Shown piece after piece: positions 2,387 to 24,100 of a DNA stretch of 24,961 nucleotides; the first letter of the stretch is position 1; each line of letters starts with the position of its first letter. The stretch is from the IMG/VR virus record IMGVR_UViG_3300013372_000205, positions 1-24,961 of that record. One strand, given 5' to 3'. A program made the translations under genes and the position numbers. This DNA comes from a virus. The notes beneath the pieces are model-generated. The model was not told where the DNA came from and did no database searches. It saw only the letters and a program-made list of their open reading frames with translations.

Positions 2387-2395
2387 AGTGGTTCC

Positions 2396-3613: not shown

Positions 3614-3637
3614 TTCTATATTACTCCGCTTTGTAAT

Positions 3638-3645
3638 TATTTATC
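3638..3645 (-). promoter_or_regulatory. Putative T4-type late promoter GATAAATA before the 405-residue fibre gene
   Basis: GATAAATA matches the NATAAATA late-promoter core reported for cyanophages and 7 of 8 bases of T4's TATAAATA. It sits immediately after the stop of the 206-residue gene and 24 bases before the fibre start codon, a workable distance for a short leader carrying the GGAG ribosome binding site. The longer string AAGATAAATA is shared with two other junctions in the window. Confidence 0.55.
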
Positions 3646-4266
3646 TTAAATTGTCACTAGATTAGTTAGACTCTGTATTCGAACCGTATAATCTATCTGA
3701 ATTTGTCTATTCAAACTCTTTTGAACCGGGTGAAATATAACATGGGTCAATAACTTAGTTAATTCATTACCCGCATCATCTGTCCCGTAATTCCCTAATA
3801 ATCCCAACTCATCAAACACATAGTTTGACTCCATTTGTGTTCCGTTATCAAACGCTAATTGTCCAGAAGGCTCACCGTAATCTAGTAAACACTGGACAAT
3901 AATATCAGTATAAACCTTACCTGTAGTATGATTTACGCTCATTTTATTTCTAATTGGATTATCATTCAGAATGCTAGTATCATCAATAATCTTAGTGTAT
4001 GTTTGATTATATAAGCTAGCATTCTGACCTAATGTATTTGTAGGGAGATAAGTGATAATACCTGTTTGGTCAACGCTACTGCCCCCATTACCAAATGCAA
4101 TCTTAAAGATAGCACCCTGGCCTCTACTACTTAATGAATCTGCGATAGCCACGCTGATGTTTTCATAGTGAATGGCATTGTGGCCGTCATAAAAGACTTC
4201 CCCGTCGTTAGGATCGTAGACTTTTAAAAAGCCCTCAATTGTTAGTGGAATATTGACTTTTGACAT
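3646..4266 (-). CDS. Conserved virion structural protein (T4-like aquatic phage family)
   Basis: This is a 206-residue protein beginning MSKVNIPLTIEGFLKVYDPN. Its ATG shares the A of the preceding stop (TAATG), so translation is probably coupled to the 49-residue ORF; a weak GGGG lies 8 bases upstream. The N-terminal motif LKVYDPNDGEVFYDGHNAIHYENIS (14-38 in full) is one I recognise from conserved structural proteins of aquatic T4-like phages. Later come YVFDELGLLG (149-158), LLTHVIFHPVQKSLNR (172-187) and IQIDYTVRI (189-197), typical of a beta-rich virion component where subunits pack together. It has a single Cys (C126), no signal peptide and no membrane helix. Lying between the giant baseplate-associated protein and the fibres, it could connect the two, which is inference. 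The exact family name is not known to me. Confidence 0.75.
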   Translation of the reverse strand: MSKVNIPLTIEGFLKVYDPNDGEVFYDGHNAIHYENISVAIADSLSSRGQGAIFKIAFGNGGSSVDQTGIITYLPTNTLGQNASLYNQTYTKIIDDTSILNDNPIRNKMSVNHTTGKVYTDIIVQCLLDYGEPSGQLAFDNGTQMESNYVFDELGLLGNYGTDDAGNELTKLLTHVIFHPVQKSLNRQIQIDYTVRIQSLTNLVTI

Positions 4267-4415
4267 TAATTATCGCCCCGCATTTGTACCAGAACTTCTT
4301 TGCTATTCGGATCGTAAATTTTAATAGCAGAACTGAATAAAAACCCACTCTGTTCATTTGGCTTAGATTCGGGTTTTACGTCAGGTTTTTCTGATTTTTC
4401 AGTATTTTCATTCAT
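4266..4415 (-). CDS. Small 49-residue protein with KIYDPN motif
   Basis: An ATG at 4415-4413 opens 49 codons ending in TAA at 4268-4266, which overlaps the next start as TAATG. The first 22 residues are polar and low in complexity (E, K, N, P, S: MNENTEKSEKPDVKPESKPN), probably disordered. The rest contains FLFSSAIKIYDPNSKEVLVQ, whose K-(I/V)-YDPN-xx-EV core repeats the N-terminal motif of the 206-residue protein immediately downstream. Short proteins ending in this type of motif occur in aquatic T4-like phages as far as I recall, without known function. There is no clear ribosome binding site: the 14-base gap after the giant gene is almost entirely AAGATAAATA. The precise overlap and conserved motif make a real gene likely; a role as a virion peptide or partner of the 206-residue protein is speculative. 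Confidence 0.7.
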   Translation of the reverse strand: MNENTEKSEKPDVKPESKPNEQSGFLFSSAIKIYDPNSKEVLVQMRGDN

Positions 4416-4429: not shown

Positions 4430-7400
4430 TTAATAATATCCGTTCTTTAAGAATCTGACAACTTCAGTATCACTAATCTGTAACGGGTCTCCGGCAGTGT
4501 TATAAACACTAGTATTCCAAGTGACATTGTAATACTTGTCATCCAGTCTTCTTTTCGGTGTCAATCCATACACAGTATCATATGTTACATGTACATCTGC
4601 CGGGCTTGTACCCAAAACGCCGCGGGTTAATCCTGATAAAGTATTATTCAGTATATCTACTCTACTAAATCGTATCTTTTCCCCGTTAATGACGATAATA
4701 TCACCCAGTCTTATAGAGACAGTTAGTACATCATTTACTTCTACACCATTATAGAAAATAATTGCATTTCTATTATTAAAAGTGGTTAGTTTATAATAAG
4801 AACTAGGTAATGTCATAGTGTCTGTTTTTATAATAATGTCTTTTACTTTTGTTGTTTCGAACTGAACGTATATGAACTTAGTATTCCCCACTAAACTAAC
4901 AGTTGTTGTTTCATCCATAACATCTACTACATTATTTACATTGTATAGGTATATAGTATTATCACCTTGTCTTAAGTTATTGACTAGCCAGGTACCGTCA
5001 TCGTCATTTGCGCGGTAAATATCAGTATTTCCTTTATTGTCTATAATGATGTCAAAACTCAATGAATTTGGAGTAGGACCATCTACCGTACTTGTTACCA
5101 CTACTATATCGTCATATTCAACACTAGCTAAAATATTAATCTTATTTTGTAACTTTTTCAATAAAATAGCAGATGCGCTACCGGTATTAATTCGTTGTAC
5201 TAATTTTAAATTAGTGTTATTAGTTATAGTATCTACTGTATAACCCTTACCGTTAATTATAACTGAATCTCCTACTAGTAATTCAGAAGTAAATAATGTT
5301 CCGGATCCTATTACAGTGTCAGTGTCTGCGGTTATTGTTATAGTACCAGTCAATGTATATAACGTAGGACTATATCTTAAATTAGACGGGTCAACTCTTT
5401 TTCCATTAATTGTAACCCATGCTCTACGACTATCGTTGTACTGAAGAAACTCAGCATTAGGGTCAGTAGTAGGGTTAATTGGTTGTTCAATTTTAAAAGT
5501 CAATTCGTCTTTCCATACATAACCACCACCTATATGATTTTCTGCTAGTTCAGGAAGTACAGGAGTTGTTAGTGTTGAATTAGTATATAATGTGTATGGA
5601 TAATATGTTACACCACCAAAAACATATGTACTTTCAGCTTTTATATAATATGCGTTGTTATTAAGATTGTCAGACCCAACTAAGCCGTCTATTCTAACTA
5701 AATCTCCGCTATCAAAATCAGGATCAATTGCTGTTACTACAATGATATAATCTTTATTAGTTAAAGTATAAACTGGCGCTACATTAATACCAGTTCTCTC
5801 TTTGGTTTGCAAGTATAATCTCTGAGTTTCGTTGTATGTAGTAATAGATAAAATATCAGTAGATACCAATGATCCAGCAGAAATTAATGTAATTGTTAAC
5901 TCGTTTGTTGCTGAGTTAATACTATATTCGGTTATTGGTGCTAATCTTAAACCATTCAATTCTACTATTGAATTTACATTATTATTACCGCCTACAAAAC
6001 CTTTAACTGTAAAGGTATCTTGTCCGTTAGTATCATCACCGGTAAATAGCTGTGTAGTTGGAAGGCTATACATATATTCGCTCGGATTCAAATCGTTAAC
6101 ACTAGTATCTAGTAATGCAAATGAAATATAATCAGTTTCTTGGTCATACAGTTGGTTGAATACAATTCTAGCAAAGTTATAAGACCCATAAACAAAGGTT
6201 ACAAGATAGTCAATTAAATAATCTAATTCTCTACCATTATAATATACCACCGGCTTAGTAATTAATGGCTTGAATTCAATACCTAAATGAATTTCACTAA
6301 ACCCTGTTTCTTCATTCACACGCAATGGTATTAATTGACTATTACTGCGTAATATTTGTTTACCGTTACCTGCTTCATATATTTCTACCAGTATAGATTC
6401 CGTAGAACTTATTGCATTGCTTAGTGTAATAGTTTTAGTAATCCAATTAACAGAATAACTTATAGGATTAGATAATGTTGTTAAATCTTCATAAATTCTT
6501 CTACCAGTTTTTTGTACATCATTCATTAAGAAAACGCTTAGGTGTATTGGATTCTTTACCATCTTATCAAAATCGATAGTCAATGATAATGGTAATTTTA
6601 CAGTCTTGGAAACCATGTTGAATCCGGTATGTTCATAGAATTTTTTAGTAGCTAGCAAACTTGAATTATCCCAATATGAACCCGGTGCAGTAGTAACACG
6701 CATCAATAGTGTGTCACTCATAACACCGGCTACTAATTCTTCTGGTCCATAACCGTATAAGAAATCACTTCCCTTAACTACACTGAACGGTTCCTTAGTT
6801 GTAATATATGAAACATCACTCCATGTTACTCCATCCATACTTCTAAGTATAGTGGCTTTTTCTCCTACAGCATAGAAATAAGTACCATCATATGACACAT
6901 TATTTAAATTTACTTCAGTGATATCACTGTTGGTTAGTTGAATCCACGTTATACCATCTGTTGATGATAGTAATGTACCATTATTACCTACAATTACAAA
7001 TCTACCGTTAGCATACACACCGTTGTTAAGTGTGTCTGTTATTGCAGATCCGGAAATTACTGCAGGTGTCCAGTTTGACCCGTTTATACCATAATATATT
7101 TCACTATTTTCTCCGGCAACTACTAGTAGATCACCGGAATTAATAATAGTATTGAATGACGACCTAGAAATATTAGGTGTTGATAATTCCCAGTTGCTTC
7201 CGTCTAAGCTATTTAAAATAACGGATACGGTTATTGTAGTTGGTGCTGATGTTTCTGCTCCGGATAGTATTTGATTGCCACCGCCTACTGCAACAAACCC
7301 TTGGTAGTTTTCTGAGTCTACATATGTAATATCTTTGATATCATACGATAATCTTCCACCAAATGTATATATAGGTACCCATACAATACCATCTTGGCTT

Positions 7401-10400
7401 CGGTATATTCTTTCTCCAACTGCATAATAGAAACCGTCTGCAAAAATAACATCGTTCAACCTGTCAGGAGGAATACTGATAGGACTACTATCAAAATTAT
7501 CATTTCCATATGGAGCTTTATCAAATAATATAGGATTACCAGTTGTTACCCAATTCTTAGCATCAAAGCTAACTAACATTGGATTAAGCAACGTTCTAGT
7601 AGTAACAACATATTGGTCATCAAAGTATGATATTCCCGTAATATCTAAAACCATGTCAGCAATATTAAAATTATCCCACGTTATTCCATCTTCACTAATC
7701 AAAACAAATGAAGTGTTATTTGAATCTCCTACTGCTACATAACGAGTACCATCATTCACTATTGCTTTAATATTAGCATTGCGTGGGTAAAACGGTTGAT
7801 CCTGTAGTTCAAAATCTAAGGATAATTCATCATCCGGACTAAAACTATTACCATAATATGTATTGTTTGGATAAGTAATACCTTTAACTAGTTGTTGCAA
7901 ATCCTTAGGAGGCATATTAATTGCCGGCTCATAGTATGCCACAATTCTGTCTAATGCATTTAGCATTCTATCACTACTTTCAATTGTAGCCCACTTAGTC
8001 TTATCAAACGTTCTGTCGTTATTACTTTCTACACAACGCCAAACTTTATTATCATATGTTACAATTGAAGTACTATCATATTTGTAATTCATTCCGTAGT
8101 AGATAGGCTCAGGCGCATATGCAAAACTATTAGTATTTGCCAAATACGTGAATTCGTTGTATCTTACCGGGAGTCTCATGCTGATATCTTTGTATACTTC
8201 AACTTGAGTATCATTGATTGGTTTTAAATAATATAAACTGTATAAACCAACAGCAGTACCAGTAACGTTAGAATATAATATTCCTCCTCCGTTGTTGTCA
8301 GTACTATATTCGATTGTTATGATTGCATCATTACGACCGGTGACACCACCCAAACTAGAACCCGGAATCACAATTATATCCCCGCTAATATACTTACTGC
8401 CAGGGTTTAATATCTTAATAGTATATTGATTTGTCGGAATATTTGGATCAAATTTTGGTCTATATATTTCAATCTTAGCTCCATTAGAACTAGTGTCATC
8501 ATATGTGAATGGTGCTACTACAGTATAAAAATATATACGAGTACCTTGTATTTGACCAGGCTTTAATGTAGTTGGTTCGTAGTTTAACCCAACAACCGCA
8601 TTGTTATCAACATTAACTACTTGCGTAATTGGTAATACAGCACCCTGGAAACTAGCTAAGTTTGCATCTATTGCAATACCGGTTGCAGTAAAAGTTTTTA
8701 TTGGCCCGTTATTAATTGGCGTACCTGTTACTGTACACGTATCTACTCTTCCGTTAGAACCTGAAATCCCAGTGATGCGAATTACCAAATTGTTTGCAGG
8801 AGTAGTACCGTTAAATCTACTTCCATCCATATACACTAAGTCGTTTACTTGGTATCCACTACCGTAATAGAAAGGACTAACGGTTGCGGTGTAAGAACTG
8901 CCATTTGATGTTATATTGAATCTTGCATTAGTGCCAGTACCATTAGTAGTATCACCCAATTGAGGATCTGCGTATACTCTTTCAACTGCTGTTACTGTAA
9001 TTACGCAATCATTTGTAGTATTAGCCCCGGCCAATCTAGAACCCAATATTCTAATAACATCATTCTGTCTATATGCCGCGCCAACGGTTGTCATTGTCAC
9101 TGAATAATTTCCACCCAAGAGAACATTATTGATTGTAAATTTAGCATCAGTCGAGCCACTTATACTTGCAGTAGCTGTCATGTTAGTATAGGATCTACTA
9201 TAATATAACAATGTCATATTACTAGAACTCTTATCATTAATTGTTCTACTAAAAGGACTTGACCAAAATTCATCTGGACGCCAGACTTCTACCTTAGGTA
9301 CATAACTAGTTCTATCAAATCGCAACGTGTTTTGCACACCTCTAATCAAATTGTTACTTGTTATAGGAATAGCACGTACTGTTAATTCAAATTTATATGT
9401 AGTAGTAATAGCTTGAAAGGTTGGTTTGAATATGAATTTATCAGCGCCTTTTAGACTATTTGCAAGAGTCTTGTGCAACGTAATTGAGATAATTTCTGAT
9501 TGATCCACAGTCGCTACCACATATACATAATAGTAACCATTCTTAATAGAGCCACCGGTGCCATCTATCACAGTTGACTTAATCATATCTCCTGTTTGTA
9601 AGAATGTAGTAGGTACTAATACCGTATGATTAATATAGTTAATTTGCGTATCTTCAAATGTTATTTCAAAACTATTAGTTACTATTATTTCCGGAGTCAC
9701 TGCATAATTTTCGCCTGGGTCTACTACCTTTATACCTATAACTTTATCACCACTCATTATAGGTAATAAACTAGCTTCACGGGTAGGGATAGGATAAATT
9801 TCCGTATCAATATAAGCGGTGACTGTGGGAGGATCGACATAGTTACGACCTGTGTCTAATACGATAACTCCAGGTAAATCCATATAAACAGTAGTACCTG
9901 GATAATGAACAGTTACTAGAGAATTGTTTAAACCTCTTGTTAATCCTGAAACACGGCCAGTTTCTCTATCAACAGTTGAATACCCAATAAGTTCATCATC
10001 AATTTTCATTGTGCCTACTATAGGTATACCTCTACCATTGTCTACAAACAACACATTACTTGTAGTTGTCATGTACTTTACAATTACTGCTACTATTGAA
10101 TCTGAAACAGTATCTAAACTTAATCCGTAACCACTATACCAATTTGAATAGGCAGAGTTTTGCCATACATCATCTGTAATTGAAAATTCATTATCTCCAT
10201 AATTCGGAGATTCAAATACTAATTTTGGAGTTTCGAATTTATCAATGCTTGCATTGTACTTTGGTGGCAAATCAAAATCAGTAATGTCACCGGTATATGT
10301 ATCCAATGCATTATACTTGAACCCTAACTCTTTTATTACAGTGTGATATGGTTTAGTTTCATTAATAAATCCACTAATTAAATTCTCGTTATCACGTTGA

Positions 10401-13400
10401 TATTTCTTTTCTTGCTCTAAATTACGCACTGTATATACTACATCTGCAAAACTAGTTTTATTTAACCATGGCAAGTAATTATGAGCATCAGTATTCTCAC
10501 TCTGAATATACTCAAACATCAATATCAAACTCTTGTTTCTATACGCTAATAAAGGACCAGTATAGATTTGCTCATTCAATGCTCTAATAATATTTCTAGT
10601 TTCAGTTGACGGGTATCCATCATACACAACAGTATCATAGAAATTATCACCAAATCCAATCTTATTAGTTTGGTAATCCCATAGAGTATCTAAGAATTTT
10701 ATAGTACCGTTTTGCAAACCAATACGTACCCAAGAACCAGAAGTATAAACATGTACTTCACGATTACCTTGACTATTTTGTGCAATACCTACTATCAATC
10801 CTTCTTTAGGTGTTAATCTTAGTAAGTCTGGATAAGATGCTACTTCAATTGCAGCCTTTGTTTTATCACTGTATCCATCTTGCCACCAATAAGTATGAGT
10901 CCAATAATTTCTAGTATTATGATAATCGCCGTGGTCAGTTAAGAATGTTAGATTACCAAATTCACTTACTGTATATTTTGCTAAAATACTATTAGCATAT
11001 TCTAAGTAATTTTCTAATGCTTTGAATCTATTAATAAAGAACCCTTGTCTTGGTCTTACATTAACACCAATTTGTAAATAGCTAGGTAAGTTAATATTAG
11101 GTACAGTAGCACCGGATTCATCTACACCGGCAAAACTATCTAGTAATCTATCATATAAACTTTCAGGATATGTATATCCACGCAGTTTATTAACAAAGCC
11201 CGGTAAGAAATCTTCTGGGAAATTGCTTCTTATTAATTTGAATTCATTATGTGTGGGTGTTTCTCCGGATCCAGTACTAAAACCAATATGCATATTAGTT
11301 TGCAAACCGTTGATATATTCTCTACTATTGTATATTGCAAATGTGTCTGGTCTTAATGGTGCAAGATAACTTATACCTGAACTCTGTGGATTAGTAATAT
11401 ATTGTTCTATAACACTATCAGTTAATGTTTTACCACCGTATAGTTTATTAGTTTGTCTAACCCAGAAATAATATTTTGTAACCAAATTGTGATTTGAATT
11501 AACTGCGAATGAAGTTGTATAACGTTCTAAATCATAGGTAGTACCAACACCAACGTAGAATGCAGGTGTTACATCACTTTCTATCCAAGAATAAACTGCA
11601 ACAGTACTTCCAGGGAATACACTACCCCAATACTTTGCGTTATAAACTAAATCATCTTGGTGATAGTTCATAAATTTAACGTCACTTGTATTAAACCACA
11701 ATTTACCAATATGTGCTTTGCCCCATACTATAGTGCCGGTATCAACATTAATACTATTATATCCTGCAGGATCAGTCATAGAGATAAAATCTAAATTTTC
11801 TGCGATTGCACCTAATAATTTTCCACTCAACGGATCAAAATAGTCTAATGAATTTAGATTACTATCATCTAAGTTATTATATAATTGTATCTTTTTAATT
11901 TTAGATACATCTACCACCGGGCTAGATTTTCTATGCACAGACCAGTTTGGTTTTCTTTCAGTATTTTGATATATTACTGCTCTACCGCCCACGTTATCAG
12001 ATTTGAAGTTAGGGCTACCTACCATAACAACATAATCATTAAATGTAACAGTAGACCCATACATTGGCTTTTTACCGTAAATAGGTTCTAAATCATTTAA
12101 TGGTTGTGAATAGATATATTGTCCAGTGTTTAATAAACTTTCAGCATATGGTTTAACATAATCGTACATGTAAACAGCGCCAGCCTCAGTTGCCTCATCT
12201 TGGAATGTTGTCAAATTACTATCAAATACAGTATCATTGTGTGCGTAATCATCATCACTAAAATCAAATTTAGTGCTTACAAATCTTGATCCTGTTGGGG
12301 CTGATACCACAAAGCTATTAAATTCATTAAATTGAACATTATGTCCAAATGCTGTACTATTCTCTGGGTGAGGATTTCTAATCACTTGTGTTTTAGTATA
12401 CGGGGCTATTCCTAATTCATAATAATAATTTCCGTTGAACACTTGCAATGTTAATTTGTTATTATCCTGAGATAAGTTCATATCACGTAATCTAATAACC
12501 AATCTATCATCTTCAGTAACATATGCAAATACGTTTGTTACATTAGCTACGTTAATAGCGTCTGCTATATCATATGCATCACCATTTGGAAACGGTACGC
12601 TTTGACCATTAACTAATAGATAACTTGCGCCTAATACATTGTTGGCAACAATAAATGCAGTAACTCTACCAAAACGTTTACCTTCATTAGTATAACGATA
12701 AACTGCACCTTCTTGCCCAGCTGGTGCAGTTGGTATTGCATCATCTGCTTGTGTAGCTGTTGTTATACCACTACGGTCATATGGTGCACCAACAAGTAAT
12801 TCACTTCCTGTACTATTACATGACACACTTGTACCAAATTGTTGTCCTGCAATTACGCCATTATAGCCCTCGTAACTTGCTAATTGTTGTTCTAATACAA
12901 AGTTTACGCTACTTAATGTAACAATGTCTCCTGCAAAAACACGCGGGCCAATCAATACTAAGTTTAATATTACTACATATTTGCTAGTAGATAATCTAAT
13001 GCCATTAATGAAAATTTGACTTCCACGACCAGGACTGAATGGCAAATATAATGCATAGAATGAGAACGGAGGACTATCATATTGTACAGTCCATGATTCA
13101 ACTAATCTTGAATGTACATATACATAACCAACATCAGCTATTACCGGTAATAAAGGATCCGGGCTATATCTAAAGTTGGCTTTAGGAGCACCAACAAATA
13201 GTTTTGAACCATCATAATTTGTTGCAATGCTATATCCATAGTTGTCGCCAGCTTGGCTAAATGTTCCTGCATTTATTAAATTCAGCAATGAGTAATTGTT
13301 GTTTACTGTTCTTAAGAATGCATTATCACCATCAATATTTGTAGGCGTAATACTATATCCTATACGTTCTACTGTATGGAATGTTGTTCTGTTTACTGTA

Positions 13401-16400
13401 GTTGTTATTACTATTGCCGCACTGTTAGCTGGTATATTAGTAAATGTAATTGTTTCTTGTGTTAATGTGTAAAATGCCGGCAACACAGTTGAACCACCAA
13501 CCGTTACTGCAATATTATTAATAGTGCGAACAAATCCAGTTGATAAGGTTGGTTGTAAGTCGTATGTAACTTTTGTTCCATTACCAGTAAAAGTGTCAAC
13601 CACTGTATTAATATACTCACCGGTAATTATTGTTACATAATCCAGTGCTTGTGTTACTGAATATACCTTAAGTACAGTTCCAAGATGTACGTATGCAGGA
13701 TTTTGATAAATTGCTACTCGTAAAAATTCATCAAAGGTATTGAAATGCTGAGTAGCATTATCCAAGTAACTAAACAATTGAGTATATAACACGCTTTGCA
13801 TGTTATCAATGTATAACTTAGTCATTCCGGTAACATAATCATATTCAGTATTACTTAAAATAACCGTATAATCTACTGGATCACTTTCTGGATCAAATGA
13901 TACTTTTGTACCAGTTGGAACTATACCTTTAATCTGTATATAGTAACGTCTTTTTGTTGAATTGATACCTGTTGTAGTAGATCCAGATACTTCATAATCA
14001 TTTGTTGCTTGTAATAACGTATATCCGGACTTTGCATCATATCCTAAATTGAATATAGTAGCTGTATTATATTGATTATATTGCCAAAATGTGACACGTT
14101 TGCCAGGAGGAATAACAGAAACTTTGTCACCTGTAACAATAAATTCTTTCTTTAGTGGTTCAGTAGTTACCGCAAGTGCAATTCCAGTGAATAGATAAGT
14201 AGGGTCAACATCACGTTGGAATGCAATAATACTATTATAATCTACTGCACTTAAGTATAAGAAATTACCATCACCGCTGAAGGTCATACTTGTACCAACA
14301 TAAGCACCGGCAACAGTAATAATTTGTTCTTCAACTAATGCTTCCACTTCTGGAAGTTGTACAATTCTATATACATATACTTGGCTTGTCACGTTATCTG
14401 GTTTTGACACTACCATAAATTCTTCATTACGTGCAATACTCTTACCATATGGTGCAGTTTTTGTAATAGTATCTCTCAGTAAGAATCCACCGTTGGATGC
14501 TTGAATATATCTATATAACTTACCAGCACCGGGGTCACTTACATAATATCCTAACTTAGGTAAATATGCAATTGCGGTACCAAAGGTTGTGTTGTTTAAA
14601 CTTCTAATATTTGCATTATTAAATTTTGTTAGTTTATAATTTAATGACTTACGATACACAGCCCAATCATTATTTACGTCTTTGTCAATCCAAACAGTGT
14701 TTTTAGTATATTCACTATTCATTAATGGTAAGTTTAACAAACCTACAGGACTACTTAATCTTTGGCTTTGTAAGTTAAACACTAATCCTAGACCGTTAGG
14801 GGTGATAACATTTAAACTATTAGGTAATGATAAATTTACTACTACTGTTTTGTTTGTACTAATAGAAACAATCACATAATACCCATCTACTCTATAGTCA
14901 TAGTTTACAATACCTATACCGTCATATTTTGATAGTGAATGCGGAATATCAAATGTGAAAGTTACAGTACCATCTAAATTATTAAGTACCGAAGTTAATC
15001 TTCTTCCCAATGGTATCGGAGTATATATATTCCAGTTACCTCTATTATCTGCAATCCATATATAATCATTAGCATATACATACCCTACTGTAGTTTTATC
15101 TAATCTTTCAATAGTATAACCAGTTAAATATGTATCGTCTAAATTTACATATCCAGAGTCTGGCATATTAACTAATGATCCATTAGTAACAATTGGTAGG
15201 ACATTTGGACTTTTTATAACTCTTTCATAGTTAACCAAATCGTATAAAGGAACTTGTTGATGTGCCCCTGTAACAGGGAACCCATTAGTTAAACTAACGA
15301 TAGCCGGGTTACCGGTTAATAAGTTTTCATTTAATGTAAACTCTACAAAATTATGATTTAATATTCCGCCATATTCTGCTGACTTGATCGCCCAATTTTC
15401 ATATATATCGTATTCTAATGTATGGTTCTGTAGTTCAATACCTTGCAATATGTCAAGTCCGTCTCTGGAACCCTTACTACCAATCATGTTCTTGTAAACA
15501 CCGATTTGAGAACCATCATTTAAGTTAGCATCAGCAAGATACGTGCGTGGTCTATATCCAATTAAGGAGAATCCTAATAAATCTCCATCACTTTCTAAGT
15601 TACCACGGAACTCGTCATAATATAATAATGATTCATTCGACCTTGTACTAGGGTTAGGTAATAACCCCTCATGTATATTTTGATAATTAGTTTTTAACCA
15701 ATTGTTATAATTGAAAGTAGTGCTAGGTACAATAGTTTGAATATTAGCCATCCAATATTCACGTTTGAATTTTACGATTGTTCCTTTGGTATACTTTTTA
15801 TTTGATGTCCATTCTTCAACATTGTTTTCATTTAATATAAACCCAGGAGCAGTTAATGTTCCGTCCCAATCACTTGATTTGGTTCCTCTTACATATAATC
15901 TTTGTTGGCGCAATCCAGTAGTCAAATTGAATATAACATCGTTGAATACTGTGTCATTATCAAATACCACCACATGTTCAACGTTGCTCAAATCTAATTG
16001 TGCATAGCTGATACTATCCCCCTCAATTAAAGGTTTAGCTGAGAACTCGTTACCATTTCTATATATAGATAAATCTTTTATTTGAATAGGTAGTAAATTT
16101 TGACTTAGCATATAATTATCATGTACTAATGATAAAGATTGTACTGTGTTAAATTCTTTGTTGATTAAAAAGCCATTGGCGCATGGATTAAGGTTTATAC
16201 TACTACCATCTTCCCATCCAGACTGATACCAATACAAGACTTCAATAATCATTTGGGCCCATGTTACTTCAGTACCGTTTTCTACAGTGTTAAACTTCAA
16301 ACCTAACGATTCTAAATATTTTCCATAACCGTTTAAAAATTCAGTCAACTTTACCGCACTAGTAAATTCATGTCCATATTGAATGACACTAATATTTTCT

Positions 16401-19400
16401 GTGAAGTTTTGTGCTAATTTAATATTAATTGCGCCATACCCAATCTCAGTATAATTACCATTGGTTATAGGTTCCATGTATTTGAAGTATGCTTTATTTT
16501 GGCTATTGCCATACACCTTAAATCCATTAGCTGTTTTTTGAACAATTACGCTACTGTATACAATAGTATTTTCAGGTTCATTTCTATAAAATAAAATATT
16601 ATAACTATCGTCAGGAATTAGTAAACTATTATTTTTACTATTTGGTGAACCTTTTTCAACATAAAAGTTAAGTTGATTTTTATCACTAAACCCTGATAAC
16701 TTGTAAGTTAGTCTAACATCTAGGTTGTTCAATAGTTCTGTTAATATTTCATTACCTTGCAATCCATATTGTTGTAGGTAGTCAACCATCCAATTTAAAT
16801 AACTATGAGATGCAGTTGATGCATCTTTTCCATATATGGTAATGTCACTAGGTGAAGACCTAAATCTGTTATCAACTAAGTATTGTTTAAACTCAGCGTT
16901 GTATTTGTATTTGTCTAGGTCTACACCTAAGCTAAGGAAATTAGCAGGTTTTGTTAATGCAAATATACGCATCAAATCAAAAGGCCAAGCACTACTTGTT
17001 AGATAAGCATATTCTGCGGGACCAACGTCACCCGCATCCCAGTCAGTTTTAAATGTACGCTGTGTATATGCTCCAACACATGATTCAAACGGACTTATTA
17101 GGTTACCGTTTTTGTTTACTGGTAAAATCTTTAGTAAGTCTGGTCTAATTCTCTTTTTATTAATATATGGTGAGCCGTCATTCCATACATAACCATTACT
17201 GATATCTTTCCACAGTAGGTCATTGGTGCTAGTATAAGGAGAACTACCATAATATCCATCCCACCATATTGGCTTGTTAGTTATACCTAACATTTCCCAA
17301 GGTGTAATATGAGGTGATATTGTATCGTATAGCCATAAATATATACCTCTCCAACTACCTTTGGTAAAAGATTTGTTAGTTAGTTTATTTGTTGCTTTTT
17401 TATAATTCCATGTATACTCATCGGTACTATCATAATATTGTTGATTAAATTCTATACGATTTAAACCAGTCCAGTTTAAAAACGTAGTAGTGTATAGATT
17501 CATAAACTCATCATATGAGTACTCTGTGGTTCTAAACTCACCAGGAAGTATATCATCAAGTAATAACGGGATCTCTGCGTTAACTTTGATGTTGTTATAT
17601 ATTCTTAGTTCAAATTCATAAAGTGCTTTGTCTCTGAAGTCTTGCAAGAATCCATCGTTATACTCACCGTATAACTTAGTTAATGAACCGTCATGACCTT
17701 TTAACATGAATGTAGGTTTATAATAAGTATCATCTAAAATGATATCAGGTATAGATACTGGATATAATCCTAATTTAGAAGGAGTGTTTGGAACATAACT
17801 ACCATATGTTTGATTATATTCTTTGACCGTTACTATGTCGCCGGCTTGTAGAGTTGTTATAATTAATACATAAGGATCCACATCCGATACAACATAATCA
17901 ACATTACGTATCAGTTGAATGTCCTTAGATAAACCATCTACAAACCTAGTTATATATAACAACACACTATAATAATTTGCATTAGTAAAATCATATGTTC
18001 TTACTAGTGGATAAACCGTATCACCCAATCCTACTTTAAAATTGTATGTATTAGTTACGTAAGCAGTTTTGCTAGGTAACATGTCACTCCAAAAGAAAGG
18101 ACTACTATCGCTCTTAGTACTTGATATAATATCTAATGAATCATCTAGGATAGATAATGGTGAATCATAAGGAGTATAGTTTTGACTATTTACTGTAGAT
18201 ACCAATAATGCTTTAAACTTTACATACTCATTTGAATTATATGAAATACTACTAAAGAAATTATGACTTTGTTTTCTTATAATAGTAGAAGGTATAACCA
18301 ATGATGCACTATTTTGAATGATTCGCATACCATATGGAACTACATTACCCAAGTCTCTATAATTGTTTGCCCCAAAAGCAATACCAACTAAGTTAGGAAT
18401 GTTATTACATATACTCTTAAAATGTCCTCTTATATCACCTGAGTTGATTACTGTAATTTGTTCGTTGAACGGATTATGATCCAAGTTACTTGGAATTTGA
18501 TAATATCCAGTTTTACTAATCTGGTCACTATATAACAATATATCTATTGCATTACTATTTGATAGTGTACTTAATATTTTAATTGATGTTCTATTTGCAG
18601 ACACCGTTACTATATAACCAGAAGAATCGATTCTATCATTATCAACATATACAACAATTGTTGGCCAGTTTGTTGTGGTTGCATCCTTCATTGCAATATC
18701 ACATACAAAAGTTTGGTCAGTTATTGTGTTTTCATTGTATGCAAAATTAAATATCTGATATTGAAAACTACTTTCAATCGCTGGTTCCCAGCCTATTTTA
18801 CGAACATATTCGTTATCATTAATGAATGAGTGTACATAGCCAGTATTAATAGCCTGGTTGATAGATACTCCACTAGATACATAATTGAAGAAGGTACTGT
18901 TTAATGTTACATCAAAAACTATGTCGCTTAAGTTACCTACTCCACTATATTTAATAGGGAATCTTAATACAGAGTCATCTACTCCGGTTGTTTCAGCATA
19001 CTGGAATAACGTACATCCAGTAAAATTGGTTCCAGGATAATATTCAAATGCGCTAAAACTTATACCATTGTTGTCGTATATGTCGAATAAAGGTGGTTGA
19101 TTAACTCTTTCTTTGAACTGTGAGGAAATCCACTGGTCTCCATCAAAATATAATGTACGCCCAACATGTGTGTCACCTCTAGTTATTAATATCTGATCCA
19201 GATATTCAATATCACCGTCACTTGCTTTAGTTAGAGTAACAATCCGTTGACCGTTAATAGTAGCTAGTGCAGCCACATATATTTTATTCCTTACAGCAAG
19301 ACTAGTATCGTTTGCAAACACAATTCTTGCACCATCAAACAATCCACTTTCAGTACCATCAGGTTGATAATCTGTAACACCACCGTTAATAGTTGACAAT

Positions 19401-21178
19401 GCATCTGTAGTTATTGTGTCTAAAAAATCAACCGGAGCTTTACCAAAATTACCTGAGTATAGTAATTTTAAATTTGGATAAAATTCTATAATAGGTCTCT
19501 TTGCTCTACTATCTAAACTAGATAATGCAGTACTAGCTATCGGGCTTACTGTGTTATTCTCTACTACTGTTTTTAAAACATCAACGTGGAACCAGCGATT
19601 ACTGCGACTCCATGCATTTCTATCAATACTACTGCGATTTATTGTAATGTAGTCTTGGTCATATGGTACTAAACTTGAGCCACCAAATGCATCTTCTTCA
19701 AACGAGGTGCCATCAAACGGTGTATTAAACGCCTGACTAAATGGTTCAGGAACAATCATTTCGCTAACTGGAATTAATGAGATACTTGATCCTACACCCT
19801 CTACGTAATAAAAGTCAGTTGTGTATTCAGTTGGGTACACGTTTCCAGCAAAATTTACTTTTAATCCATTTGTGAATTTAATACCGTTTGGACTGGTGTA
19901 TGTCTTTTTACCTAGTATATCCTGTACGTTCAGTAATACATCTATTGGATTATCTATAATCTTAATTTTACCAAACTTAACATTGGACGTGCCACTTTGA
20001 TAAAATAATGTATCTAATCTTGATGTCAACTGTGGCAATTGAATAATTTCACCGTAGCTATTTTTAACAAATGTTTTTGTTATATATTCTTTACCTGATT
20101 TAATAACCAATCTACAATTGTCAGGTATTGCATGTAATTGTATGATTCGTATTACAGAGTCGGGACCCACTAGTTTGATTTGGTATATATTAGAACTTAG
20201 ATTAGAATAATACCCATTAGCAAAATCACCGTTGAAGTCTACATCATCATAATATTCACCTATGAACCCAACGTCAGTTGGCTTTGCACCATAAAATATA
20301 AAAGTTTTTCCATCGATACCGGTAACGTTATCAATTCCTTTGATTTTGCTTAATGGCATTCCATTCAATTCAGCAAACGATAATGTTGTTACTAAGTCAA
20401 CATCAATACTTTCTTGATAATTATATTCATCTTGCGTATCTGCTAATGGTACATCAAATTGAATTACTTGTTTTGCTATACCAGATGCTTGATTATATTG
20501 TATGCCTAATATTTCACGTGTGCTTACATTAGTACTGGCAGCATTTACTCCGCCCATACCCGGTACAGTTTGTATGTAAAACTTTTCAGTATTATCTACT
20601 ATAAATTCATAACTACCGCCACGCACTAAAGTTATAGTAGGATTACTAATTTCTAAAGGGACATCATTAATTGCTATATCGTAACTATTTGCATTGGATG
20701 TTATAGTAAAAGAAGCCTTAACTAATAAATCTTCAGTAGTGACAACAACAGGTTCAGGACCCTGTGGTACCCAATAATATTGTCCAAAGTTAATTAACTT
20801 ATCTAAGTCAGCAAAACTATCCCATGAATAGAATTCATTATTAAACAATTTGTTGTGGTTAGGAGCAACACCACTTTCTAAACTCAATGCATCAATAATA
20901 CCGGGATACGTAATTAAGTCACTTGCTATTGAAGTATCTTTCTTTTTAAATATAACTGCCGGCTCTAATTGATAATTGCTTCTTATCGTAGATATTTCTG
21001 TTAGATACTTATCCTTGCTTTCGACCCCGTAGCCAAATTTACTACCAACAAAACCCTGTATTTTATTAAAGCTGGGTGGTTCAACTAACGTATCAAGCGT
21101 AGCATTCAAAAACTGTTCGTTAGTTTTTGTTTTGAAAATTTCCGGTAGAAACTCAATTGTTCTAATTCTTGTTGCCAT
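4430..21178 (-). CDS. Giant multidomain baseplate-associated structural protein (5582 residues)
   Basis: This single open frame of 16.7 kb encodes a protein of roughly 0.6 MDa starting MATRIRTIEFLPEIFKTKTN, with an AGG 9 bases upstream. The N-terminus (RIRTIEFLPEIF, FLNATLDTLVEP, YQLEPAVIF, FGQYYWVPQGPEP), GDIVTVKEYNQTYGSYVP (about 1112-1129), GDVGPAEYAYLTSSAWPF (about 1381), WTHTYWWQDGYSDKTKAAIE (about 3422) and INETKPYHTVIKELGFKYN followed by ITDFDLPPKYN (about 3600-3630) match my memory of large virion proteins of aquatic T4-like phages. It occupies the slot of gp7 after gp6 but is over five times longer than T4 gp7; homology to gp7 is unproven. Modules: CBM5/12-like segments (about 1787-1830, 4362-4400), seven FG-GAP-like blades (2198-3070), SGLTRG motifs (about 3740, 5512), three G/Y-rich repeats (4020-4285), seven Asp-box blades (4470-4785), and repeated xxNGxxL beta modules (about 2721, 4979, 5071, 5255, 5473). 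There is no signal peptide or membrane helix. It is probably a baseplate-periphery scaffold with adhesive domains. Confidence 0.85.
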   Translation of the reverse strand: MATRIRTIEFLPEIFKTKTNEQFLNATLDTLVEPPSFNKIQGFVGSKFGYGVESKDKYLTEISTIRSNYQLEPAVIFKKKDTSIASDLITYPGIIDALSLESGVAPNHNKLFNNEFYSWDSFADLDKLINFGQYYWVPQGPEPVVVTTEDLLVKASFTITSNANSYDIAINDVPLEISNPTITLVRGGSYEFIVDNTEKFYIQTVPGMGGVNAASTNVSTREILGIQYNQASGIAKQVIQFDVPLADTQDEYNYQESIDVDLVTTLSFAELNGMPLSKIKGIDNVTGIDGKTFIFYGAKPTDVGFIGEYYDDVDFNGDFANGYYSNLSSNIYQIKLVGPDSVIRIIQLHAIPDNCRLVIKSGKEYITKTFVKNSYGEIIQLPQLTSRLDTLFYQSGTSNVKFGKIKIIDNPIDVLLNVQDILGKKTYTSPNGIKFTNGLKVNFAGNVYPTEYTTDFYYVEGVGSSISLIPVSEMIVPEPFSQAFNTPFDGTSFEEDAFGGSSLVPYDQDYITINRSSIDRNAWSRSNRWFHVDVLKTVVENNTVSPIASTALSSLDSRAKRPIIEFYPNLKLLYSGNFGKAPVDFLDTITTDALSTINGGVTDYQPDGTESGLFDGARIVFANDTSLAVRNKIYVAALATINGQRIVTLTKASDGDIEYLDQILITRGDTHVGRTLYFDGDQWISSQFKERVNQPPLFDIYDNNGISFSAFEYYPGTNFTGCTLFQYAETTGVDDSVLRFPIKYSGVGNLSDIVFDVTLNSTFFNYVSSGVSINQAINTGYVHSFINDNEYVRKIGWEPAIESSFQYQIFNFAYNENTITDQTFVCDIAMKDATTTNWPTIVVYVDNDRIDSSGYIVTVSANRTSIKILSTLSNSNAIDILLYSDQISKTGYYQIPSNLDHNPFNEQITVINSGDIRGHFKSICNNIPNLVGIAFGANNYRDLGNVVPYGMRIIQNSASLVIPSTIIRKQSHNFFSSISYNSNEYVKFKALLVSTVNSQNYTPYDSPLSILDDSLDIISSTKSDSSPFFWSDMLPSKTAYVTNTYNFKVGLGDTVYPLVRTYDFTNANYYSVLLYITRFVDGLSKDIQLIRNVDYVVSDVDPYVLIITTLQAGDIVTVKEYNQTYGSYVPNTPSKLGLYPVSIPDIILDDTYYKPTFMLKGHDGSLTKLYGEYNDGFLQDFRDKALYEFELRIYNNIKVNAEIPLLLDDILPGEFRTTEYSYDEFMNLYTTTFLNWTGLNRIEFNQQYYDSTDEYTWNYKKATNKLTNKSFTKGSWRGIYLWLYDTISPHITPWEMLGITNKPIWWDGYYGSSPYTSTNDLLWKDISNGYVWNDGSPYINKKRIRPDLLKILPVNKNGNLISPFESCVGAYTQRTFKTDWDAGDVGPAEYAYLTSSAWPFDLMRIFALTKPANFLSLGVDLDKYKYNAEFKQYLVDNRFRSSPSDITIYGKDASTASHSYLNWMVDYLQQYGLQGNEILTELLNNLDVRLTYKLSGFSDKNQLNFYVEKGSPNSKNNSLLIPDDSYNILFYRNEPENTIVYSSVIVQKTANGFKVYGNSQNKAYFKYMEPITNGNYTEIGYGAINIKLAQNFTENISVIQYGHEFTSAVKLTEFLNGYGKYLESLGLKFNTVENGTEVTWAQMIIEVLYWYQSGWEDGSSINLNPCANGFLINKEFNTVQSLSLVHDNYMLSQNLLPIQIKDLSIYRNGNEFSAKPLIEGDSISYAQLDLSNVEHVVVFDNDTVFNDVIFNLTTGLRQQRLYVRGTKSSDWDGTLTAPGFILNENNVEEWTSNKKYTKGTIVKFKREYWMANIQTIVPSTTFNYNNWLKTNYQNIHEGLLPNPSTRSNESLLYYDEFRGNLESDGDLLGFSLIGYRPRTYLADANLNDGSQIGVYKNMIGSKGSRDGLDILQGIELQNHTLEYDIYENWAIKSAEYGGILNHNFVEFTLNENLLTGNPAIVSLTNGFPVTGAHQQVPLYDLVNYERVIKSPNVLPIVTNGSLVNMPDSGYVNLDDTYLTGYTIERLDKTTVGYVYANDYIWIADNRGNWNIYTPIPLGRRLTSVLNNLDGTVTFTFDIPHSLSKYDGIGIVNYDYRVDGYYVIVSISTNKTVVVNLSLPNSLNVITPNGLGLVFNLQSQRLSSPVGLLNLPLMNSEYTKNTVWIDKDVNNDWAVYRKSLNYKLTKFNNANIRSLNNTTFGTAIAYLPKLGYYVSDPGAGKLYRYIQASNGGFLLRDTITKTAPYGKSIARNEEFMVVSKPDNVTSQVYVYRIVQLPEVEALVEEQIITVAGAYVGTSMTFSGDGNFLYLSAVDYNSIIAFQRDVDPTYLFTGIALAVTTEPLKKEFIVTGDKVSVIPPGKRVTFWQYNQYNTATIFNLGYDAKSGYTLLQATNDYEVSGSTTTGINSTKRRYYIQIKGIVPTGTKVSFDPESDPVDYTVILSNTEYDYVTGMTKLYIDNMQSVLYTQLFSYLDNATQHFNTFDEFLRVAIYQNPAYVHLGTVLKVYSVTQALDYVTIITGEYINTVVDTFTGNGTKVTYDLQPTLSTGFVRTINNIAVTVGGSTVLPAFYTLTQETITFTNIPANSAAIVITTTVNRTTFHTVERIGYSITPTNIDGDNAFLRTVNNNYSLLNLINAGTFSQAGDNYGYSIATNYDGSKLFVGAPKANFRYSPDPLLPVIADVGYVYVHSRLVESWTVQYDSPPFSFYALYLPFSPGRGSQIFINGIRLSTSKYVVILNLVLIGPRVFAGDIVTLSSVNFVLEQQLASYEGYNGVIAGQQFGTSVSCNSTGSELLVGAPYDRSGITTATQADDAIPTAPAGQEGAVYRYTNEGKRFGRVTAFIVANNVLGASYLLVNGQSVPFPNGDAYDIADAINVANVTNVFAYVTEDDRLVIRLRDMNLSQDNNKLTLQVFNGNYYYELGIAPYTKTQVIRNPHPENSTAFGHNVQFNEFNSFVVSAPTGSRFVSTKFDFSDDDYAHNDTVFDSNLTTFQDEATEAGAVYMYDYVKPYAESLLNTGQYIYSQPLNDLEPIYGKKPMYGSTVTFNDYVVMVGSPNFKSDNVGGRAVIYQNTERKPNWSVHRKSSPVVDVSKIKKIQLYNNLDDSNLNSLDYFDPLSGKLLGAIAENLDFISMTDPAGYNSINVDTGTIVWGKAHIGKLWFNTSDVKFMNYHQDDLVYNAKYWGSVFPGSTVAVYSWIESDVTPAFYVGVGTTYDLERYTTSFAVNSNHNLVTKYYFWVRQTNKLYGGKTLTDSVIEQYITNPQSSGISYLAPLRPDTFAIYNSREYINGLQTNMHIGFSTGSGETPTHNEFKLIRSNFPEDFLPGFVNKLRGYTYPESLYDRLLDSFAGVDESGATVPNINLPSYLQIGVNVRPRQGFFINRFKALENYLEYANSILAKYTVSEFGNLTFLTDHGDYHNTRNYWTHTYWWQDGYSDKTKAAIEVASYPDLLRLTPKEGLIVGIAQNSQGNREVHVYTSGSWVRIGLQNGTIKFLDTLWDYQTNKIGFGDNFYDTVVYDGYPSTETRNIIRALNEQIYTGPLLAYRNKSLILMFEYIQSENTDAHNYLPWLNKTSFADVVYTVRNLEQEKKYQRDNENLISGFINETKPYHTVIKELGFKYNALDTYTGDITDFDLPPKYNASIDKFETPKLVFESPNYGDNEFSITDDVWQNSAYSNWYSGYGLSLDTVSDSIVAVIVKYMTTTSNVLFVDNGRGIPIVGTMKIDDELIGYSTVDRETGRVSGLTRGLNNSLVTVHYPGTTVYMDLPGVIVLDTGRNYVDPPTVTAYIDTEIYPIPTREASLLPIMSGDKVIGIKVVDPGENYAVTPEIIVTNSFEITFEDTQINYINHTVLVPTTFLQTGDMIKSTVIDGTGGSIKNGYYYVYVVATVDQSEIISITLHKTLANSLKGADKFIFKPTFQAITTTYKFELTVRAIPITSNNLIRGVQNTLRFDRTSYVPKVEVWRPDEFWSSPFSRTINDKSSSNMTLLYYSRSYTNMTATASISGSTDAKFTINNVLLGGNYSVTMTTVGAAYRQNDVIRILGSRLAGANTTNDCVITVTAVERVYADPQLGDTTNGTGTNARFNITSNGSSYTATVSPFYYGSGYQVNDLVYMDGSRFNGTTPANNLVIRITGISGSNGRVDTCTVTGTPINNGPIKTFTATGIAIDANLASFQGAVLPITQVVNVDNNAVVGLNYEPTTLKPGQIQGTRIYFYTVVAPFTYDDTSSNGAKIEIYRPKFDPNIPTNQYTIKILNPGSKYISGDIIVIPGSSLGGVTGRNDAIITIEYSTDNNGGGILYSNVTGTAVGLYSLYYLKPINDTQVEVYKDISMRLPVRYNEFTYLANTNSFAYAPEPIYYGMNYKYDSTSIVTYDNKVWRCVESNNDRTFDKTKWATIESSDRMLNALDRIVAYYEPAINMPPKDLQQLVKGITYPNNTYYGNSFSPDDELSLDFELQDQPFYPRNANIKAIVNDGTRYVAVGDSNNTSFVLISEDGITWDNFNIADMVLDITGISYFDDQYVVTTRTLLNPMLVSFDAKNWVTTGNPILFDKAPYGNDNFDSSPISIPPDRLNDVIFADGFYYAVGERIYRSQDGIVWVPIYTFGGRLSYDIKDITYVDSENYQGFVAVGGGNQILSGAETSAPTTITVSVILNSLDGSNWELSTPNISRSSFNTIINSGDLLVVAGENSEIYYGINGSNWTPAVISGSAITDTLNNGVYANGRFVIVGNNGTLLSSTDGITWIQLTNSDITEVNLNNVSYDGTYFYAVGEKATILRSMDGVTWSDVSYITTKEPFSVVKGSDFLYGYGPEELVAGVMSDTLLMRVTTAPGSYWDNSSLLATKKFYEHTGFNMVSKTVKLPLSLTIDFDKMVKNPIHLSVFLMNDVQKTGRRIYEDLTTLSNPISYSVNWITKTITLSNAISSTESILVEIYEAGNGKQILRSNSQLIPLRVNEETGFSEIHLGIEFKPLITKPVVYYNGRELDYLIDYLVTFVYGSYNFARIVFNQLYDQETDYISFALLDTSVNDLNPSEYMYSLPTTQLFTGDDTNGQDTFTVKGFVGGNNNVNSIVELNGLRLAPITEYSINSATNELTITLISAGSLVSTDILSITTYNETQRLYLQTKERTGINVAPVYTLTNKDYIIVVTAIDPDFDSGDLVRIDGLVGSDNLNNNAYYIKAESTYVFGGVTYYPYTLYTNSTLTTPVLPELAENHIGGGYVWKDELTFKIEQPINPTTDPNAEFLQYNDSRRAWVTINGKRVDPSNLRYSPTLYTLTGTITITADTDTVIGSGTLFTSELLVGDSVIINGKGYTVDTITNNTNLKLVQRINTGSASAILLKKLQNKINILASVEYDDIVVVTSTVDGPTPNSLSFDIIIDNKGNTDIYRANDDDGTWLVNNLRQGDNTIYLYNVNNVVDVMDETTTVSLVGNTKFIYVQFETTKVKDIIIKTDTMTLPSSYYKLTTFNNRNAIIFYNGVEVNDVLTVSIRLGDIIVINGEKIRFSRVDILNNTLSGLTRGVLGTSPADVHVTYDTVYGLTPKRRLDDKYYNVTWNTSVYNTAGDPLQISDTEVVRFLKNGYY
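6824..7771 (-). repeat. Seven Asp-box-like repeats (second beta-propeller) within the giant gene
   Basis: Residues about 4470-4785 of the giant protein contain seven units of the form (aromatic/hydrophobic)-xAVG-x(5-12)-SxDGxxW. Cores in order are SEDGITW, SFDAKNW (degenerate), SQDGIVW, SLDGSNW, GINGSNW (degenerate), STDGITW and SMDGVTW, at residues about 4490, 4538, 4590, 4653, 4693, 4734 and 4777. Each is preceded by a strand such as YVAVG, YYAVG, FVAVG, FVIVG or YFYAVG. The SxDGxxW core is the Asp-box hairpin of sialidase/BNR and YCF48-type propellers. Seven copies would close a seven-bladed ring. No sialidase catalytic arrangement (Arg triad with FRIP) is seen, so a binding or structural role is likelier than hydrolysis. 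Confidence 0.75.
8324..9121 (-). repeat. Three Gly/Tyr-rich GxxYxxxDxIxIxGSxLxG repeats within the giant gene
   Basis: Residues about 4020-4285 of the giant protein include three related units: VGAAYRQNDVIRILGSRLAG with TNDCVITV, GSGYQVNDLVYMDGSRFNG with ANNLVIRI, and GSKYISGDIIVIPGSSLGG with RNDAIITI. Each pairs a G-x-x-Y turn, a D-(I/L)-(I/V)-strand, a GS-(L/F)-x-G loop and an N-(D/N)-x-x-I strand about six residues on. Spacing is about 75 and 155 residues, the larger gap holding an inserted segment. I recall this unit from other phage structural proteins; its fold and function are unknown to me. Confidence 0.7.
11969..14587 (-). repeat. Seven FG-GAP-like repeats (integrin-type beta-propeller) within the giant gene
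   Basis: Residues about 2198-3070 contain seven blades of the form (F/Y/V)G-x-(S/A)-(I/V/M)-...-(V/L)-x-x-P-...-G-x-(V/L)-Y-x-Y. The starts are FGTAIAY (2198), YGKSIAR (2243), VGTSMTF (2293), YGYSIAT (2644), FGTSVSC (2778), FGHNVQF (2943) and YGSTVTF (3039). The best-preserved cages are LFVGAPKANF, LLVGAPYDRSG, VVSAPTGSR and VMVGSPNFKSD, closed by GYVYVHS, GAVYRYT, GAVYMYD and RAVIYQN. The calcium loop DxDGxxD of true integrin FG-GAP repeats is mostly lost; blades 3 and 4 retain SGDG and NYDG. Long insertions of about 300, 85, 115 and 50 residues separate blades 3-4, 4-5, 5-6 and 6-7. Confidence 0.75.
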
Positions 21179-21195
21179 TTATATATGCCTATACA

Positions 21196-24100
21196 TTATT
21201 TAATTTGTAGTTCAGCCGGTGTCAATGCTGAAATAACAGTGATATCGGTTGCTTGGGCGCAGTTAACAAATATTTCATAAGGGGCACTGCGTATCTCATA
21301 CAATTCGCCAAAACTTAAATTTGGATCGTTGGGGACTAACACTACCGAATTCACCAAATCACCTATTCTACTATGTAAGTAGGCACTTAACTCACTAAAA
21401 TAAAATGTATCACCAAAGTCCCAATTATCAATACTAAAATAATTATTAAGTTCACCTAACACAGTTGTTCTTATTTCACTATCGCTGGCAGTAGTTGTTC
21501 CTGATTTAATAATCTTAATAGTTGCACGTAAATTAGGTGCAGCCTTATTACCAAACAATGGTTTAAATCTAACACTATTAAGAACTACACTATCGGTTAA
21601 CATTTTATAAGTATTAATATTACTGTATTCTTGGTTCAATTCATTAATCGTCGGTGGTGTTGGTTCTGGTATTACACCGGTAGTATCTTTAATCCAATTT
21701 TGATATTGAGTATAATAACTCTGTGTTACTAGATACAAATCAATGATATTAGTAGTGCCTGGATTAATACGTGTGGTATTATCTGATACGTGACGATATT
21801 GGAAATATAATCCTTGACGTCCAGTTTTAGCAACATAGTCTGACAATTGAACAATATTAAATATATTGGCGCTAGTAGTATCGTTAACTGATTGGTAGAA
21901 TTTATTTTCAAATAATGCAAAGAAAACACTACCAACTGGAAATTCGTACTTAACCGCACTAATATCTTGTAGTGTTGGGAACGATGCTAGTATCAAGGTA
22001 CTATCTATCATAACATACCTAGTTAACATATTTGTGTCTACAATGCGTTGGAAGAACACATAATAGAATATATTATCAAATCCGGTTACATATCCAGTTA
22101 CATCTCTAAAGAAATCTGGATCTTGAATAACGTTGCCCATGCTAGCATCAATGCTAGAAACTTCTACGCTATAGTCATCTACATAACCATCACTCTCTGT
22201 TGGTTGTCCTACTACACGTAGTTTTAAATCTCTGGGGAACGGAGCATTACTTGTAGGCTGGCTATTAGATTTTAATATATTAATATAATCTTGCATTATC
22301 TTACCAGTCAACGGATCGTATATTAATTTGGATCTATCAAAACTAAATCTAATATCAGATACGCTAGCAAAATAATAAGAAAGACTTTTATAAGTTACTC
22401 TGTAGTTGTTAGACCCCAAACTTTGAAACTTTACAAAATGTCTAGGAGCATCATATGTACCTATACTCCAACGATTCTGATTTGCAAGTAGTGTGTTATC
22501 GAATAGCAAGGTAAAATTTTTATTTAAATTAATTTCAGTGATACAATCTTGTACTACAGTTGTAGGAATTGAATTACTAAAACTAGGTATTACCGTAGTT
22601 AATCTTGCTTTTGTTGGAATAGGGCTTGATAATATAACCGGACCTAATCCATTACTCAACACTCCCTCTCCGTTATTTGATCCGTCACCGGTTACACTAA
22701 CCACGCTTGTCCAGATATGTTTTACGTCTTGCGGACCTGATAATCCTTCAATCAACATATTTGAGTATTGGTCAAAGTAATAACCTTCTGGTGGAACAAA
22801 ACGCAACAATGCTCCAGGTGTTATATATTGTGCATTACCTGATACATACGTACCTATCTGTGCGGGTCCTGCATAATTATATAAATAACCTGTGGTCTCT
22901 GTTGCATTATATGTTGTTTGTTGCCAATAATATATATATTGATAACTGACTGGTGGAAAATCTACCCACGGATAACGTTGTATATAATATTGATATGCTC
23001 TATGACCACCTAGAATATTAGCTAGTGTTTCTGTTAAGAAGTTAATAATTTCACTAGTAGTATTTGGATTGAAGTTTACATAACCTTCTGACTCATCTAG
23101 GTAAAGACCACCGTCATCAGCAAAGTCATTTGTACTAGAGAACTTTCCACTAGGATCTAGTAAATCAAAGTTACGACTAACACCAACGCTAGTACGATTC
23201 AATGCTTTACTTTTAATAATAGAACTGTATAATGTAAATGGGAAGTTGTTATAATCTTCACCATTAACCATACGATTTTGACTATAGTATCTTTGAGGTG
23301 CACGTGTTTTAATATTAGTAGCAGATTCACGTGTTTGTGCATTAGTAACCGGTAAAGGTAATTCTAATGTCATTAATAATGTTTCTGTTCTACCTGTTCT
23401 GCTAACATAACGTAAAGTAATATTGACACCTTGGAATTCGCTAGGATCAATCGTATAGGTTAATCCATTGCTTGTACGAATGTATGCACTAAAATTACCA
23501 ATTGGTATTTCACTAAAGACTCCATCACCAAAATGATAGCTTACTTGGTCACTAAATCTAGAGGTTACACTAAAGATTTTCTTTTTGTTGTTGTTTTCTG
23601 TGCTACCCAAATTAGCAAAAACGCTGTCTACCTTTGACCATTCAGTTAATGCGTCTGTGATACTGTCTACAGCATACAACCAGGTATCATCGTTATTGAC
23701 TCCGGAAACATCTAAGTCAACTACTTGGTTGCTTATTTGTTCAGCTATGTTAAAATTATAAGTTTGTAGTGTCCCTTGTTTAAAATACATAAAGAACCCT
23801 GTACTAGGACTACCAAATCCTAATTTATCATTTCTATATAAAATATTAAAAGTTCGATCCGGAGCAGGACTTTTTTCGTAAAGTGTATTTTTATTCAAAC
23901 TAGTTACACTAACACATTCAAAATTCATACTAGAGCCATCTACCGTTGCACTAAAAGGTGTTGTAGCTACTGCACCAGCTGGTAATCTTATACTGTATTC
24001 ATCTGTTTTTATATCTAATAATGTTTGACTATTACCGGGTCTACCTATACGTTGAGCATCAATTAAGGTAGCATTTAATACTGTATTAAATTGTTCTTGC

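Follow-up and report, generated by a model that had tools for sequence, protein, structure and literature searches.

An intact 5582-residue member of a widespread giant jumbo-phage virion protein family, encoded directly after a gp6-like baseplate gene

The DNA analysed here (the window) is a 24,961-base IMG/VR fragment, two thirds of which are filled by one unbroken frame, as the preliminary description had stated. The frame (4430..21178) lies on the minus strand, like all window features given below, runs from an ATG to a stop codon without a break and encodes 5582 aa; GC content by codon position is even over its whole length (about 0.41/0.37/0.22). Directly upstream lies a gene for a gp6-like baseplate wedge protein of 1119 aa (21196..24555; phrog_10646, E 1.5e-257), itself preceded by a gp25-like wedge gene, cut by the contig end (24599..24961; PF04965, E 1.2e-6). 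A 206-aa gene of phrog_11259, a family of unknown function, is found downstream of the giant (3646..4266). Further along, a 405-aa fibre-type protein (2396-3613) shows a weak match of its C-terminal part to Peptidase_G2 (E 0.022), and also to phrog_6427; a self-cleaving chaperone-type end is possible. A 273-aa ORF (217-1038), situated where the tail gene cluster ends, looks glycosyltransferase-like by eye and has no PHROG or Pfam match.

The giant gene was compared with its copies in two contigs, both 98% identical to the window. One of them, an independent contig (L002), carries a whole copy of 5580 aa, while in the other (L001) the copy is truncated at the contig end. The window and L002 genes are separated by 2 gap columns in all, and dN/dS ranges between 0 and 0.14 in each 400-codon bin; the gene is under purifying selection over its full length. 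Since two near-identical contigs carry it and dN/dS is low, the giant frame is real, and both a misassembly and a frame open by chance can be dismissed. The frameshift or misassembly by which, according to the preliminary description, the frame might be refuted is excluded by these data, and by the 41 complete giant ORFs found in relatives.

The protein belongs to the family described by the phrog_10938 profile ('virion structural protein', 3324 positions), which matches its N-terminal half with an E-value of 3.4e-212 and its C-terminal half with an E-value of 2.9e-42. Homologues were identified by tblastn in 84 INPHARED phage records, nearly all of jumbo myophages, including PA5oct, 121Q/PBECO4, phAPEC6, Munch, Atu_ph07, GAP32, CBB, SCTP-2, Vibrio 2.275.O and Phosso; an alignment-based scan found relatives in at least 594 IMG/VR stretches. 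Complete homologues range between 3323 and 4555 aa in the isolates examined, and between 3971 and 5994 aa among 41 IMG/VR loci. In two further relatives (L117 and L079) the giant frame is seemingly broken or late-starting in the contig, the longest open frames being of 1336 and 3835 aa. The protein had been regarded as unusual, which overstates the case: practically all relatives are giants, at 3.3-6.0 kaa, and virion-protein profiles with 3324, 4179 and 6136 positions (the last being phrog_701) are already present in PHROGs. The window protein is long, without being an outlier, and is an intact member of an already known and widespread giant jumbo-phage virion protein family.

The gene order around the giant is conserved. 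A gp6-like gene was found immediately upstream in 98 of the 98 loci with a callable upstream ORF; these genes encode 1109-1246 aa, and either end at most 56 bases from the giant or overlap it, often by one base. 121Q, phAPEC6 and CBB have these genes arranged as hub/lysozyme, gp25, gp6, giant, and RaK2 shows a matching arrangement. In nearly all complete relatives, the gene downstream of the giant encodes about 200 aa. The homologue of Salicola phage SCTP-2 has another giant ORF, of 9291 nt (L025:4612-13902), directly upstream, at the place of the gp6-like gene.

The presence of homologues in virions is documented by published papers and database records. The record of PA5oct gp355 is annotated with ESI-MS/MS. 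In purified virions of phAPEC6, gp245 (381.88 kDa) was detected by 17 unique peptides, a coverage of 7.6% (PMC7247149), and in those of CBB, CBB_236 was detected by 21 peptides, a coverage of 7.72% (PMC5259590); both coverages are too low to demonstrate a full-length chain. The two proteins were assigned as homologues of the giant by position and length. The description of the window protein as a phage structural protein in the slot after gp6 is borne out by the phrog_10938 match, by the gp6 synteny and by these detections.

Comparison with distant homologues defined a set of core blocks, C1 to C6, which occur in fixed order in the window protein, span most of its first two thirds and are retained by every complete homologue compared. 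C1 (residues 1-145; 20744..21178) is conserved in all distant jumbo-phage homologues, and is followed by C2 (residues 503-999; 18182..19672), C3 (residues 1130-1790; 15809..17791), which is the best conserved part, C4 (residues 1860-2050; 15029..15601) and C5-C6 (residues 3081-3680; 10139..11938). Block lengths are nearly constant, with coefficients of variation of 0.04-0.07 (0.04 for C3, 0.07 for C5), as opposed to 0.14-0.32 for the spacers; across relatives, C3 and C5 are separated by a spacer of 337 to 1658 aa, and C6 is followed by a tail of 424 to 2398 aa. AlphaFold models were obtained for residues 1130-2050 (pLDDT 73.9, C3 being confident over most of its length) and for residues 3081-3680 (pLDDT 78.5). 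Comparison of models shows the C3 fold also in a structural protein of Atu_ph07 and in proteins of uncultured phages.

Several accessory modules are located between and after these blocks. One, at residues 196-430 (19889..20593), is present in aquatic relatives and missing in the isolated jumbo-phage homologues; residues ~171-249 are similar to modules of cyanophage tail-fibre-like proteins. Between C3 and C4, at about residues 1790-1845 (15644..15811), a putative small domain of chitin-binding type (CBM5/12-like) is suggested by its fold resemblance to the chitin-binding domain 2d49 (46 columns, rmsd 1.9, E 0.28) and by the PF02839 (CBM_5_12) matches of relatives: 13 of 45 match within C3-C4, where the window protein itself does not, and 15 of 28 carry the domain in their C-terminal regions. 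The spacer 2050-3080 houses a probable FG-GAP-type beta-propeller (about residues 2195-3075; 11954..14596), with about seven blades by eye and other modules inserted between them. PF14312 (FG-GAP_2) was found in this spacer in 44 of 45 relatives at E <= 0.01 (best E 4.4e-20), while the window protein scores 19.1 bits (E 0.0015), below the curated cut-off of 23. A literature search combining FG-GAP with phage and baseplate returned no paper from the library searched.

The C-terminal third is variable. It contains glycine/tyrosine repeat modules (residues ~3777-4275; 8354..9850), six Asp-box (BNR-type) repeats (residues ~4485-4800; 6779..7726), whose motifs fall at 4495-4786, and a C-terminal module (residues ~5490-5578; 4445..4711), which overlaps a part similar to the tail-fibre family phrog_1980. 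Modules of the glycine/tyrosine repeat kind are common to the C-terminal regions of relatives and the giant gp7 of cyanophages. The Asp-box repeats probably form a second propeller, and a similar stretch occurs in the Limnohabitans phage DC31. The repeat patterns, including the Asp-box one, were designed after viewing the sequence, and only the Pfam results are independent. Some relatives carry modules similar to the N-terminus of the T7 tail fibre. Taken over the about 100 relatives compared, this arrangement fits a fixed skeleton enlarged by insertion and terminal accretion, some of the gained modules being common to fibres. The earlier idea of growth by domain insertion is largely right, in that propeller, CBM-like and repeat modules do separate conserved blocks; the T4 gp7 or gp10 homology that had been associated with it found no support.

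We regard it as fairly probable that the giant is a baseplate scaffold of T4-related jumbo myophages, standing in the place of gp7 and displaying binding modules. The protein would assemble on the gp6-like wedge ring, at the place held by gp7 in T4. Baseplate contacts would be made by the conserved skeleton of roughly 2,100-2,400 residues (C1-C6), and the added modules, namely the FG-GAP-type propeller, the Asp-box repeats, the CBM5/12-like domains and the glycine-tyrosine repeats, would project outward, and might serve in attachment by binding either glycans of the host surface or other fibres of the phage, a function suggested by the names of the families they match. What counts against a scaffold is that no sequence similarity of the giant to T4 gp7 or to other T4 wedge proteins was found, nor any fold similarity to them in the two core models.

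The same slot could be occupied by a true gp7 homologue, diverged past sequence recognition as a cyanophage giant gp7 might be after further drift. The preliminary description had pointed to the 1032-residue gp7 of T4 as being at the matching place, correctly, as gp7 directly follows gp6 in T4. Moreover, the 4067-aa gp111 of Synechococcus phage Bellamy (phrog_2885, 'baseplate wedge subunit') lies between gp6 and gp8, in the order gp25, gp6, giant, gp8, and matches residues 724-813 of T4 gp7 (E 5e-8); giant gp7 proteins following gp6 therefore have a precedent in cyanophages. In the window family, similarity to this Bellamy giant is seen in the accessory modules of the C-terminal region (E 1.4e-8). 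The Bellamy locus itself comprises the gp7 gene (L142:6571-18774) and a gene for a 2522-aa structural protein (phrog_358; L142:20365-27933); together with phrog_701, this makes such phages a known source of giant virion proteins. Against common descent from gp7 stand the comparisons of the core. With hhalign and deep alignments, no block matched T4 gp5-gp12 (gp8-gp12 being single sequences, hence less sensitive), while the neighbouring gp6-like profile matched T4 gp6 (E 3e-4); the core blocks equally failed to match T4 gp7, Bellamy gp7 and a joint gp7 core profile. The gp7 core profile A9, which finds both T4 and Bellamy, was not significant in any of ten jumbo records, and the gp7 similarity, including its DFY-x-(T/S)KG core motif, was not found in the core of the giant family. 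In Foldseek searches with the two core models (1130-2050 and 3081-3680), no PDB match reached E <= 0.001, T4 baseplate proteins were absent from the best 50, and only the chitin-binding domain looks meaningful; searching PDB sequences with profiles of three core regions gave nothing meaningful either. On this evidence, the gp7 identity of the giant is positional only, and a hidden gp7 homologue is unlikely. A 'TKGSWRGIY' stretch, similar to the gp7 motif by eye, was rejected, its K being unconserved in relatives and the profile comparison negative. A search for T4 gp8 (PF09215) in nine records, run without a working positive control, returned nothing, and the matches of phrog_438 are confined to a stretch of repeat type within the giants and to a small number of other frames.

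The entire protein might also be a baseplate-attached adhesin or fibre, that is, a receptor-binding arm with an N-terminal anchor and no scaffold role, as the tail-fibre-like similarities at residues ~171-249, in the C-terminal region (phrog_1980) and, for some relatives, to the T7 fibre N-terminus would suggest. We consider this quite improbable, because the C1-C6 skeleton is kept by all the complete homologues compared, unlike typical fibres, and because the giant adjoins gp6, with separate fibre-type genes coming after it. A bolder form of the scaffold reading, to which we attach rather little confidence, is that in T4-related jumbo phages an unrelated fold specific to this family (C1-C6) took over from gp7 and also absorbed receptor-binding modules, one giant per wedge then doing what gp7, gp8, gp10 and some fibres do.

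The family is widespread in viral contigs and jumbo phages, is detected in virions and takes the position of one of the core genes of the baseplate, yet its core has no recognisable relative; this core fold is the part of the giant most worth a structure, which would reveal how jumbo-phage baseplates differ from that of T4, and where the host-binding modules are positioned. The window protein itself adds one long, intact example. Compared with T4 gp7 (1032 aa, phrog_964), it shares the slot after gp6, but no similarity in sequence, profile or, for the two core models, fold was detected, and T4 gp7 is five times shorter. The giant gp7 of Bellamy shares with it the slot directly after gp6, the giant size and the C-terminal accessory modules, but keeps a recognisable gp7 core near its N-terminus, to which the core of the window family has no match, and is followed by gp8. 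The closest counterparts are the phrog_10938 proteins of isolates (121Q gp582, RaK2 ORF070, CBB_236, phAPEC6 gp245, PA5oct gp355 and Atu_ph07 gp180), which have the same C1-C6 order and are likewise encoded after gp6. The window protein is longer (5582 versus 3323-4555 aa in those examined), with an additional module at 196-430, an FG-GAP propeller region, in place of which 121Q and PA5oct have just ~110 aa, and a C-terminal region of 1902 aa.
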